Positions 43,092 to 45,826 of a DNA stretch of 64,000 nucleotides are shown here, in pieces; positions within the stretch are counted from its first letter, which is position 1, and each line of letters opens with the position of its first letter. Made by a program: the position numbers and the translations under genes. Source of the DNA: Variovorax sp. SG517 (GTDB lineage Bacteria; Pseudomonadota; Gammaproteobacteria; Burkholderiales; Burkholderiaceae_C). The notes beneath the pieces were generated by a model. That model ran no database searches, was not told the origin of the DNA, and saw nothing but the letters and a program-made list of their open reading frames with translations. The stretch covers positions 434,001 through 498,000 of the forward strand of contig NZ_JABMJG010000004.1 in NCBI RefSeq assembly GCF_013376045.1, given 5' to 3'.

Positions 43092-43682
43092 TCAACCGCC
43101 GCCGCGCTCGAACTTGAACACCGCCGTGCTGGCGCGCGCGTTGGGCAGCCAGCGCACGTCGCGGCCGTCCTGAAGGCCGAAGGCGTCGAGGATGCGCAGG
43201 TTGTTCTTGCCGGCCAGCACCTCGAAGTCCTTGAAGGTGCCGACGCGGATGTTGGGCGTGTCGTACCACTGGTAGGGCAGGCGGCGCGTGACGGGCATGC
43301 GCCCGCGCGCCACGCTCAGGCGGTTGGGCCAGTGCGCGAAGTTGGGGAAGGCGACGATGCCGATGCGACCCACGCGCGCGGTCTCGCGCAGCATGACCTC
43401 GGCATTGCGCAAGTGCTGCAGCGTGTCGATCTGCAGCACCACGTCGAAGGAGGCGTCGTCGAACATCGCGAGGCCTTCGTCGAGGTTGAGCTGGATCACG
43501 TCGACGCCGCGGCGGATGCACTGCAGCACGTTGCCGTCGGCGATCTCCACGCCGTAGCCGGTGCAGCCGCGCTCGCGCTGAAGCAGGTCGAGCAGGGCGC
43601 CGTCGCCGCAGCCGAGGTCGAGCACGCGGGCCCCCTTGGGCACCAGCTCCGCGATCAGGCGTTGATGTTCGAGGTCGCTCAT
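43092..43682 (-). CDS. metW: methionine biosynthesis protein MetW
   Basis: 196 residues, a class I SAM-methyltransferase-like fold: [18 protein letters not shown] (motif I), GVEIADGN, and [15 protein letters not shown]. MetW forms a pair with MetX in many proteobacteria and is needed for methionine synthesis. It starts at 43682 with the ATG inside the metX stop (ATGA), proving the operon; the open frame upstream is a metX shadow. Confidence 0.95.
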
Positions 43683-44842
43683 TGCTGGAACTCCTTGGCG
43701 ACGCGCTCGAAGTAGGAGCGCACCACGCCCATGTAGCGCACGTCGTCGAGCAGGAAGGCGTCGTGGCCGTGCGGCGCGTCGATCTCGGCGTAGCTCACGT
43801 TGCGGCTGTTGTCGAGCAGCGCCTTGACGATCTCGCGGCTGCGCGCGGGGGAGAAGCGCCAGTCGGTCTTGAAGCTCACGAGCAGGAACTTGGCGCGCGC
43901 CTGGGCCAGCGCGGCGCTGAGCTTGCCGCCGTGATTGCGCGCGGGGTCGAAGTAGTCGAGCGCGCGGGTGATCAGCAGGTAGGTGTTGGCGTCGAAGTAC
44001 TCGCTGAACTTGTCGCCCTGGTAGCGCAGGTAGCTTTCGATCTGGAACTCGACGTCCTGGGTGGAATAGCGGTAGTCCGCGCCTGCCACTTCGCCTTCCA
44101 CCGCGCTGCGCAGGATGCGGCCGAACTTGGCGTTCATCACGTCGTCGCTGAGGTAGGTGATGTGGCCGATCATCCGCGCGATGCGCAGGCCGCGCTTGGG
44201 CACCACGCCGTGCTCGTAGAAGTGGCCGCCGTGGAAATCGGGGTCGGTCACGATGGCGCGGCGCGCCACCTCGTTGAAGGCGATGTTCTCGGCCGTGAGG
44301 TTGGGAGCGCTGGCCACCACCACGGCGTGGCGCACGCGCTCGGGGTACTGCAGCGTCCACGAAAGGGCCTGCATGCCGCCGAGGCTGCCGCCCATGACGG
44401 CCGCGAGCGTCTCGATGCCTAGCGCGTCGAGCAGCGCGGCCTGGGCGTCGACCCAGTCCTCGACCGTCACCACGGGGAAGTCGGCGCCGTAGACGCGGTC
44501 GGTGGCGGGGTTGACGTGCATCGGGCCGGTCGAGCCGAAGCATGAGCCGAGGTTGTTGACGCCGATCACGAAGAAGCGGTCGGTGTCGACCGGCTTGCCC
44601 GGACCCACCATGTTGTCCCACCAGCCCTCGGAGCGGGCCTGGCCCTGATAGACGCCCGCGACGTGGTGCGATGCGTTGAGCGCATGGCACACGAGCACCG
44701 CGTTGCTGCGATCGGCGTTCAGGGTGCCGTAGGTTTCGTAGGCGAGCGTGTAGTCGCTGATCGATGCGCCGCTGCGCAGGGCCAGCGGGCCTGCGAACTG
44801 CATCGACTGCGGAGTGACGACCAGAGGTGGTGACGACGACAT
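43679..44842 (-). CDS. metX: homoserine O-acyltransferase MetX
   Basis: 387 residues of the alpha/beta hydrolase acyltransferase type: [27 protein letters not shown], nucleophile elbow [13 protein letters not shown] (Ser), FKTDWRFSP and the final His in [12 protein letters not shown]. It activates homoserine with an acetyl or succinyl group, the first committed step to methionine; MetX-fold enzymes in this group are often succinyltransferases despite the name. The ATG at 44842 lies only a few bases after the leader terminator's T-run and lacks a clear Shine-Dalgarno. Controlled by a SAM-II riboswitch. Confidence 0.95.
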
Positions 44843-44846
44843 GAAT

Positions 44847-44880
44847 GAAAAACCCGGCCTCGCCAAAAACGAGCCGGGTC
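44847..44880 (-). terminator. leader terminator of the metXW SAM-II riboswitch
   Basis: On the minus strand ACCCGGCTCG and CGAGGCCGGGT pair with one bulged G around a TTTTTGG loop, followed by a TTTTT run just before the metX ATG. It is placed as the expression platform of the aptamer ten bases upstream. Confidence 0.8.
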
Positions 44881-44888
44881 TGCCGCGC

Positions 44889-44941
44889 CTGTCTTTAGCT
44901 GAATTTATAGAGCGCCCGCAAGCTGAAGCAAATCGGCGCAG
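44889..44941 (-). ncRNA. SAM-II (SAM-alpha) riboswitch upstream of metX
   Basis: Reading on the minus strand: TGCGCC stem, GATTTG loop start, GCTTGC, closing GGCGC stem, then CTATAAATTC and AGCTAAAGA. This matches the SAM-II consensus in order and spacing (GCGC-GAUUU-N-GCUUGC-GCGC-UAAAU-AGCUAAA), including the 3' AGCUAAA strand that forms the pseudoknot with the loop. It binds S-adenosylmethionine and should turn metXW off when SAM is plentiful, here probably by favouring the terminator at 44847-44880. Recognised by eye; not run through a covariance model. Confidence 0.88.
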
Positions 44942-44945
44942 GGGG

Positions 44946-44951
44946 AGTATA
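44946..44951 (-). promoter_or_regulatory. putative -10 box of metXW
   Basis: TATACT on the minus strand would place the transcript start near 44939-44940, exactly at the first base of the SAM-II aptamer. The -35 position falls in the adjacent dispersed repeat and is weak (CGCAGT). Confidence 0.45.
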
Positions 44952-44952
44952 T

Positions 44953-45048
44953 CCCCCAGGCTTCGCGCACTGCGTGTCGCTTCGCCAACCCCCTTGGGAA
45001 GGGGGCAACACCGGCGGCCCGGCGGAGCCGGTTCCGCGGTGTTCCTGG
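44953..45048. repeat. dispersed intergenic repeat, copy B (inverted)
   Basis: On the minus strand it begins CCAGGAACACCGCGGAACCG, has the GGCTCCGCC and CCCCCTtcccAAGGGGG hairpins, then GGCGAAGCGACACG and ends GAAGCCTGGGGG, nearly identical to the copy at 25122-25215. It sits between the GDT1 gene and the metX promoter. Confidence 0.75.
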
Positions 45049-45061
45049 AAGGGGACGGGGG

Positions 45062-45625
45062 TTATATGCCGACGATCATCAGAACGCCGAGCACGAGGAA
45101 GATCGCTGCCGAGACGCCGTGCACCAGCTTGATCGGCACGCGCCGCACGATCTTCTCGCCCAGCCACACCACGGGCGCGTTGGCCAGCATCATGCCCAGC
45201 GTGGTGCCCATGACCACCCAGATGTAGTCGTGCGTGAAGCGGGCGGCGAGCATGACGGTGGCGATCTGGGTCTTGTCGCCCATCTCGGCGAGGAAGAAGG
45301 CGACGACCGTGGTGCCGAAGACGCCGAACTTCGATGTGCCGGGGGCATCGTCGTCGTCGAGCTTGTCGGGGATCAGCATCCAGACGGCCATCGCGATGAA
45401 CGAGCCGCCCAGTATCCAGCGCAGCACCTCGGGCCCGAGCCAGCGCGTGAGGTAGTTGCCGACCGCGCCCGCGAGCGCGTGGTTGATGACGGTGGCGGCG
45501 AAGATGCCGAGGACGATCGGCCAGGGTTTCCTGAAGCGCGCGGCCAGGAGAAGGGCCAGGAGCTGGGTCTTGTCGCCCATTTCCGCGAGCGCGACGACGC
45601 CCGTTGCTACGAGAAAAGCTTCCAT
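45062..45625 (-). CDS. TMEM165/GDT1 family manganese exporter (MntX-like)
   Basis: 187 residues, six membrane helices in two homologous halves, each with the family hallmark E-M-G-D-K-T-Q (ALAEMGDKTQLLALLL and FFLAEMGDKTQIATVML) that lines the cation path, separated by an acidic loop (DKLDDDDAP). Bacterial GDT1/UPF0016 proteins export Mn2+. The start at 45625 (MEAFLVATG) fits the family; the longer frame runs into the leader. Expression is very likely induced by Mn2+ through the riboswitch at 45709-45810. Confidence 0.92.
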   Translation of the reverse strand: MEAFLVATGVVALAEMGDKTQLLALLLAARFRKPWPIVLGIFAATVINHALAGAVGNYLTRWLGPEVLRWILGGSFIAMAVWMLIPDKLDDDDAPGTSKFGVFGTTVVAFFLAEMGDKTQIATVMLAARFTHDYIWVVMGTTLGMMLANAPVVWLGEKIVRRVPIKLVHGVSAAIFLVLGVLMIVGI

Positions 45626-45638
45626 GATGAACGTGGGG

Positions 45639-45707
45639 TTCCTTGGGCCGAAGGACGCAATTGACCGTGCAACACCTTCGGCCATATTCCCGAAGTTGCA
45701 CGGTCAA
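45639..45707 (-). promoter_or_regulatory. expression platform between the Mn riboswitch and the GDT1 gene
   Basis: TTGACCGTGCAA (45661-45672) pairs with TTGCACGGTCAA (45696-45707), extended by CTTCGG/CCGAAG after a three-base bulge, an 18-pair stem without a T-run. In the RNA, the strand GGCCGAAGG (45683 to 45675) is also complementary over nine bases to CCTTCGGCC (45654 to 45646), directly before the AAGGAA ribosome site (45644 to 45639). Two exclusive folds are therefore possible, which suggests translational control. Confidence 0.6.
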
Positions 45708-45708
45708 A

Positions 45709-45810
45709 GGTCTCGCCAGGTGTTTTCACTGCACGCGCCATATCCTGGTGGGACAGGACAAGTCTGTTGACGCGGGCCCTTCTCGCAGATCGGAAGGCGG
45801 CTACTCCCCA
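45709..45810 (-). ncRNA. yybP-ykoY manganese riboswitch
   Basis: On the minus strand the leader has GGGGAGTAGCCG (5' end 45809), GTCAACA (45771 to 45765) and GGCGAGACC (45717 to 45709), the conserved pieces of the yybP-ykoY aptamer in the right order. This element binds Mn2+ at the junction of two coaxial helices and switches on Mn exporters. Found directly upstream of a GDT1-type exporter, its usual target in betaproteobacteria. Recognition is by consensus memory, not covariance search. Confidence 0.85.
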
Positions 45811-45826
45811 ATGACGGGCGGAATTC

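Follow-up and report, generated by a model that had tools for sequence, protein, structure and literature searches.

SAM-II riboswitches (SAM_alpha, RF00521) followed by terminators have already been reported in beta-proteobacteria by Barrick and Breaker 2007 (text of PMC2258182). The text of Corbino 2005 (PMC1273637) lists Bordetella and notes terminators, and that of Meyer 2009 (PMC2704228) names Alpha-, Beta- and Gammaproteobacteria as the groups in which the class is commonest. The original prediction for the locus described here called SAM-II best known from Alphaproteobacteria, and the rarity that this implied was overstated, since the beta-proteobacterial examples are published. Leyn 2014, in the text of PMC4239095, places SAM_alpha only in Rhizobiales and Rhodobacterales and proposes a new element in beta-proteobacteria, metXZ, located ahead of metXW or metZ (in 10 of 11 Comamonadaceae, among others) and made up of six conserved regions, a pseudoknot of regions 1/4 and 2/6, and a terminator. 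A candidate reported by Khoo 2012 (text of PMC3521395), which by its name is Rfam family RF02424 (Bp2_287), lies upstream of methionine genes in most of the genomes examined there. For S. meliloti, the text of PMC9373788 predicts the metZ SAM-II to be a transcriptional OFF switch; for metA, its authors could not predict an antiterminator driven by SAM-II.

The window, by which we mean the whole 64,000-nt stretch of the Variovorax sp. SG517 genome that was analysed, carries a leader of this kind on its minus strand, some 50 to 100 nt before the metX-metW pair (Table 1). Read in the direction of transcription, it runs from TATACT through GCGCC-GATTTG-CTTCA-GCTTGC-GGGCGC, an A/U-rich segment, and GCTAAAGAC to a GC-rich hairpin and a T-run, after which comes the metX ATG. 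The SAM-II stem and the motifs GATTTG, GCTTGC, and AGCTAAA named in the original prediction all lie on the minus strand inside 44847-44941, and the genes downstream are metXW as claimed: both products score above their NCBIfam cut-offs, and the end of metX overlaps metW by 4 nt. The closest relatives of metX among the matches listed are from Variovorax, with 99% identity to V. paradoxus 110B. The element is an ordinary member of a known riboswitch class, very likely a SAM-II riboswitch that shuts off transcription of metXW at high SAM and represents a subtype of beta- and gamma-proteobacteria. Aptamer homology and anatomy, gene context, the terminator, and an enrichment of antiterminator complementarity were computed and are described below.

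Table 1. Features of the metX leader and the genes it precedes, in window coordinates.
Feature	Position	Strand	Evidence or remark
-10-like box TATACT	44946..44951	(-)	sequence; 6 nt before P1
SAM-II aptamer core	44893..44939	(-)	RF00521 and R2 matches; P1 covariation in relatives, P2 invariant there
P1 5' strand GCGCC	44939..44935	(-)	
L1 GATTTG	44934..44929	(-)	
GCTTGC block	44923..44918	(-)	P2 strand TTGC = 44921-44918
P1 partner strand GGCGC	44916..44912	(-)	
L3	44911-44900	(-)	
AGCTAAA	44900..44894	(-)	P2 strand GC(T)AA = 44899-44895
GCUAAAGAC, pseudoknot P2 3' strand and proposed antiterminator 5' strand	44891..44899	(-)	9 contiguous pairs with 44870-44862
GUUUUUGGC, terminator top, proposed antiterminator 3' strand	44862..44870	(-)	pairing probability with GCUAA
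Intrinsic terminator, hairpin GACCCGGCUCGUU..GGCGAGGCCGGGUU and U-run	44848..44880	(-)	sequence, folding, comparison with relatives
GC-rich terminator hairpin; T-run	44880..44851; 44852..44848	(-)	followed by CATTC
metX ATG	44842..44840	(-)	
metX, homoserine O-succinyltransferase-type, 387 aa	43679..44842	(-)	NCBIfam NF047916, 659.7 bits, cut-off 560
metW	43092..43682	(-)	TIGR02081, 234.7 bits, cut-off 189.5

SAM_alpha is the best Rfam family for the stretch, with 27.7 bits over 44872-44949 (E = 2.1e-4 for 401 nt), and the locus is the best SAM_alpha place in its genome (E = 9.2e-4 genome-wide; next match 15.5 bits). Rfam gives four matches at E<=10 in 44700-45100, and SAM_alpha is the sole SAM or SAH riboswitch family among them. 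The original prediction had offered a score below the SAM_alpha threshold as grounds for giving it up, and the score is literally below the curated cut-off of 36. This happens because the cut-off suits another clade; its value is a curation choice and not a property of the RNA. At E<=0.05, RF00521 also matches 2 of 14 control genomes, so Rfam alone is moderate evidence only, and two further covariance models were therefore built. R1 uses 60 sequences, the window's own included, and its genome matches are counted at E<=0.01. R2 uses 47 aptamers from genomes of the same class, none of them from the window's order. Within the order, R1 matches 152 of 200 genomes, RF00521 matches 107 at E<=0.05, and only 36 reach the Rfam cut-off; for 274 class genomes the corresponding numbers are 143, 123, and 24, which suggests that the cut-off undercounts SAM-II several-fold in these groups. 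Some of the genomes match R1 no better than 1e-5 at best: 13 of the 152 in the order and 11 of the 143 in the class.

R2 scores the window at 61.1 bits over 44882-44945 (E = 3.5e-15, rough like all R1 and R2 E-values because calibration was short), and the runner-up in the 64 kb has 9.5 bits. From a phylum sample with 30 loci defined by RF00521, the same model recovers 29 at E<=0.1; 28 of the 30 lie outside the class, and most look alpha-type by sequence. Since R2 finds both the window and these loci, the window RNA and classical SAM-II belong to one family. The RF00521 and R1 matches listed for the order largely coincide and have the same GAUUUG, UUGC, and GCUAAA parts. By homology of sequence and structure, then, the window RNA is very probably a SAM-II riboswitch, with SAM sensing predicted. 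A whole-genome scan of the window's genome with R1 gives this one match and no second SAM-II.

The P1 stem is backed by covariation: both-sided changes occur at 3 of 6 pairs in the 60 sequences and at 4 of 6 in the 47 sequences from outside the order, versus 0 or 1 in slid controls. The outermost P1 pair counted in relatives (44940 with 44911) fails in 20 of 60 sequences, the window among them, where it is a T-T mismatch. The four core pairs of P2 are present in 60/60 and 47/47 sequences; because they never vary in either set, P2 rests on homology to SAM-II and not on covariation. The RNA shares with RF00521 SAM-II its P1, pseudoknot P2, GAUUUG, UUGC/GCUAAA, methionine genes downstream, and a terminator after P2. 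It scores below Rfam's cut-off. Its beta/gamma relatives differ in having GCGCC:GGCGC as P1 in nearly every case, mostly a shorter loop in front of UUGC, and none of the long GGCCGG-type P2 extension found in many alpha-type copies; GCUAAA also serves in the proposed antiterminator. An additional L3 hairpin is present in some relatives, with 4 of its 6 pairs changing on both sides (14 sequences). A simple pattern search found no tandem aptamers, although R1 and R2 do find pairs, 45 to about 100 nt apart (L216 1300-1477, L223 1299-1477, L269 1505-1734). The class genome G444 (loci L221, L246) has unusually many R1 matches, 10 in all.

The wider comparison draws on 222 leaders, namely 166 scored loci minus 3 (weak RF00521 matches of the window's own genome), plus the 71 of 80 named metX loci, mostly Comamonadaceae, at which the element is present, minus 12 duplicate places. 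At the other nine metX loci there is no R2 match better than E 0.39. These leaders are not independent, a single metX search having supplied 70 of the 71 Comamonadaceae rows; 21 of the 222 entered via RF02424, whose model spans the terminator, and 100 regions were taken by hand, for variety and not at random, from listed R1 matches. The next gene belongs by cluster to methionine or SAM metabolism in 193 leaders (metX 97, metZ 72, metN-like 8, metH-like 7, metK 4, metF 3, metE-like 2), against 24 other and 5 with none. Each cluster takes its name from a single representative, with BLAST against the window's MetX used for metX; the metN, metH, and metE representatives fall below NCBIfam cut-offs, and the metH and metE ones are fragments. 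Clustering uses the longest downstream ORF, and some of the 24 "other" may be wrong-frame met genes (L055 looks so).

A separate observation concerns proteins of about 100 residues starting M[YF]DC, encoded 144-267 nt after the SAM-II aptamer at 14 of 91 order-set loci (L029, L030, L038, L045, L051, L057, L152, L158, L162, L169, L175, L180, L181, L184). Loci of this kind make up 12 of the 24 "other" leaders. For the four proteins searched, NCBIfam gave no match and Pfam none above cut-off; the family is possibly an uncharacterised SAM-regulated protein.

The intrinsic terminator claimed in the original prediction is borne out by a region that folds at -20.1 kcal/mol and is followed by a T-run. 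In 189 of the 222 leaders, a hairpin with a T-run lies no more than 200 nt past the aptamer, compared with 25/222 dinucleotide shuffles and 10/222 upstream stretches. By gene, the terminator is seen in 85/97 metX-like, 62/72 metZ-like, and 1/8 metN-like leaders; the 33 leaders scored without one by the detector used thus include seven metN-like ones. The metN-like leaders (L046, L058, L059, L224, L227, L234, L236, L237) are perhaps under translational control.

The terminator was also said to abut the metX ATG directly. It does lie close, but the T-run stops 5 nt short of the start codon. The related claim, that no room is left for a normal Shine-Dalgarno, holds, and none stands next to the metX ATG in the window. 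From it the original prediction suggested that translation may be controlled along with transcription. The distance from hairpin end to the first in-frame ATG, measurable in 64 of 71 Comamonadaceae metX leaders, has a median of 9 nt, usually U-rich (the start is uncertain in 5 of the 64 rows, whose first in-frame ATG precedes the hairpin end), and the crowded metX start site is therefore a shared trait. Anti-Shine-Dalgarno energy reaches -4 kcal/mol in 24 of the 64, where its source by inspection is the G's in the hairpin arm.

The terminator top of the window, GUUUUUGGC, is complementary to GCUAAAGAC over nine contiguous pairs, two of them wobbles. RNAfold, which covers neither the pseudoknot nor SAM, includes all nine pairs in the minimum free energy structures of nascent RNAs of 86, 90, and 94 nt, and seven at 83 nt; the terminator takes over at 98 and 104 nt, and at 64-80 nt and in the free full-length leader other pairings replace P1. 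The antiterminator hairpin alone has -16.8 kcal/mol. The full leader has -33.8 with the antiterminator forced versus -36.0 free, so the two states are close, as a switch needs. Forcing P1 and blocking the P2 strands makes the terminator form in the window leader. In the window's nascent RNA, GCUAA pairs with the terminator at a mean probability of 0.998, against 0.04 when the terminator is shuffled.

The same complementarity is enriched in the relatives. Among the 189 terminator-bearing leaders, 114 have a duplex stronger than that of 95% of shuffled terminators (47/64 Comamonadaceae metX, 37/80 order, 30/45 class), and the nascent GCUAA-terminator probability exceeds 0.5 in 149 versus 14 when shuffled (55/64, 54/80, and 40/45 by group), leaving 40 that fall short. 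A stricter comparison uses 216 control terminators, real ones from elsewhere in the same loci and the window, which keep the hairpin that shuffles lose, though they were collected at -10 rather than -8 kcal/mol. A duplex of -10 kcal/mol or better is found in 120/189 leaders (69 fall short) versus 7/216 controls, and the motif TTT[AG]GC in 90/189 terminators versus 2/216. Among the 90 motif leaders, 44 have A-U and 30 have C-G at the eighth position of the helix, which is paired in 76 versus 43.3 expected by permutation. This covariation is mostly between clades: Comamonadaceae (42/43 vs 42.0) and the class (18/28 vs 17.4) are at permutation level, and the order set (16/19 vs 11.0, p 0.0005) is the sole group above it. 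The base before GCTAA and the base after TTT[AG]GC show no overall excess of pairing (30/90 vs 28.8 by permutation).

Alpha-type leaders behave differently. From 30 loci outside the 222 (L247-L276), 3 were set aside as beta/gamma-type and 1 had no core; 5 of the remaining 26 lack a terminator. The 21 left, a small sample called alpha-type from sequence, pass the duplex test in 2 cases and exceed a probability of 0.5 in 3. The antiterminator complementarity thus looks like a beta/gamma subtype trait, enriched there and near background in these 21. Pairing of the alpha-type P2 extension strand with the terminator is only weakly supported (4/21 at p<=0.05). Two other candidate pairings were set aside: the GCGGGC block of the aptamer with terminator CCCG, a variant of Leyn's speculation, gives only 4 bp by eye, and GCAAGCTGA, seen in some terminators and considered as antiterminator to CAGCTTGC, looks by eye like the stem partner of TTTAGC.

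The switch we propose would work as follows. At low SAM, the nascent leader would form P1, and GCUAAAGAC, being free, would pair over 9 bp with GUUUUUGGC at the terminator top; the 5' arm of the terminator would then be trapped in the antiterminator loop, and RNA polymerase would read into metXW. At high SAM, GCUAA would be locked in pseudoknot P2 and the antiterminator blocked, so that the terminator could fold and transcription would stop just before the metX ATG. The SAM-binding strand GCUAAA would thus double as the antiterminator strand. SAM binding and the direction of the response are predicted by analogy with the riboswitch class; the switching itself and its OFF logic we infer. Such a scheme would give this class, studied structurally mainly through a translational example, a concrete switching mechanism and, if true, would account for the unusual U-rich loop of the terminator here.

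A different division of labour would have the aptamer act mainly on translation, its pseudoknot hiding a distant ribosome-binding stretch while the terminator is constitutive, as in S. meliloti metA, where the text of PMC9373788 places the Shine-Dalgarno inside the SAM-II aptamer, which acts past the terminator. The missing Shine-Dalgarno beside the window's ATG and the undetected terminators of the metN-like leaders fit such an arrangement. It is nonetheless unlikely, given that a constitutive terminator would have no need of an antiterminator complementarity enriched over both shuffles and other terminators, and that most metX-like leaders carry a terminator. Transcriptional control by SAM-II is thus the reading we prefer.

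Two further readings would take the element out of the SAM-II class altogether. It could be a SAM-II look-alike with another ligand or a protein partner, an RNA class of its own corresponding to metXZ, which the text of PMC4239095 treats as new while confining SAM_alpha to Rhizobiales and Rhodobacterales; the 164 of 200 order genomes below Rfam's cut-off would agree with that. This is very improbable in view of the shared GAUUUG, UUGC, and GCUAAA in the coinciding RF00521 and R1 matches listed for the order, of the recovery of nearly all RF00521-defined loci by a model built from class genomes, and of the want of any other SAM or SAH family among the four Rfam matches in the region. Least probable of all is a small RNA from the plus strand, trans-acting or antisense, as RF02424 is annotated. 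Its model does match 44848-44977 on that strand and the Burkholderia candidate was validated by RT-PCR, but the match has 20.7 bits, far under the curated cut-off of 70, the RF02424 strand is opposite to that of SAM-II in 30 of 30 loci compared, and the U-run follows the hairpin on the minus strand. The RT-PCR, primed with oligo(dT) according to the text of PMC3521395, does not on our reading settle the strand.

Both entries, RF02424 from the opposite strand, probably describe the SAM-II RNA itself. RF02424 covers aptamer and terminator and has methionine genes downstream, with its cut-off exceeded in 1 of 200 order genomes and at one of the 30 compared loci; it is probably the reverse complement of SAM-II plus terminator. 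The metXZ element likewise stands in beta-proteobacterial metX and metZ leaders with a terminator, and a comparison of its six regions by text description alone suggests that it is probably the same RNA as that in the window. In that text (PMC4239095) it is not called SAM-II, its region 3 is left without a partner, and another antiterminator is speculated. The S. meliloti metZ and metA leaders also combine SAM-II with a terminator in an alphaproteobacterial host, and the drawing of metZ in figure S1 of PMC9373788 may show a similar pairing. In the open-access literature searched, "metXZ" together with "riboswitch" leads to Leyn 2014 only, and "RF02424" to no paper. The open-access passages on SAM-II and antiterminators searched in PMC9373788, PMC10907184, PMC2258182, PMC12452182, and PMC4239095 contain no description of GCUAAA pairing with the terminator. 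The likely advances over prior work are therefore the proposed pseudoknot-strand antiterminator, the measured breadth in beta/gamma genomes, and the merging of metXZ and RF02424 into SAM-II. Taken together, we judge it fairly likely that there is a widespread beta/gamma-proteobacterial SAM-II subtype in which the pseudoknot strand is the antiterminator, so that GCUAAA is the object of direct competition between SAM and the terminator top; mostly unseen at Rfam's cut-off, this subtype would have entered the record as a "novel" element, metXZ, and as an sRNA family placed on the wrong strand. If so, three database and literature entries could become one.

The upstream side of the leader has features of its own. 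By its sequence and position, the TATACT box likely marks the start of the leader RNA: of 71 Comamonadaceae metX leaders, 68 have a TATRNT in the 25 nt before P1, and a control stretch has it in none of the 71. In the other two groups, only 10 of 91 and 10 of 60 leaders have it. The unit directly upstream of the SAM-II leader is a GDT1-family antiporter gene (45062-45685, minus strand), at whose start sits a yybP-ykoY manganese riboswitch (45644-45821, minus strand; RF00080, 64 bits, cut-off 45). An 83-bp repeat (44953-45035) with 42 matches in its own genome, itself counted, stops exactly at the -10 box, and this dispersed element may shape the metX promoter.
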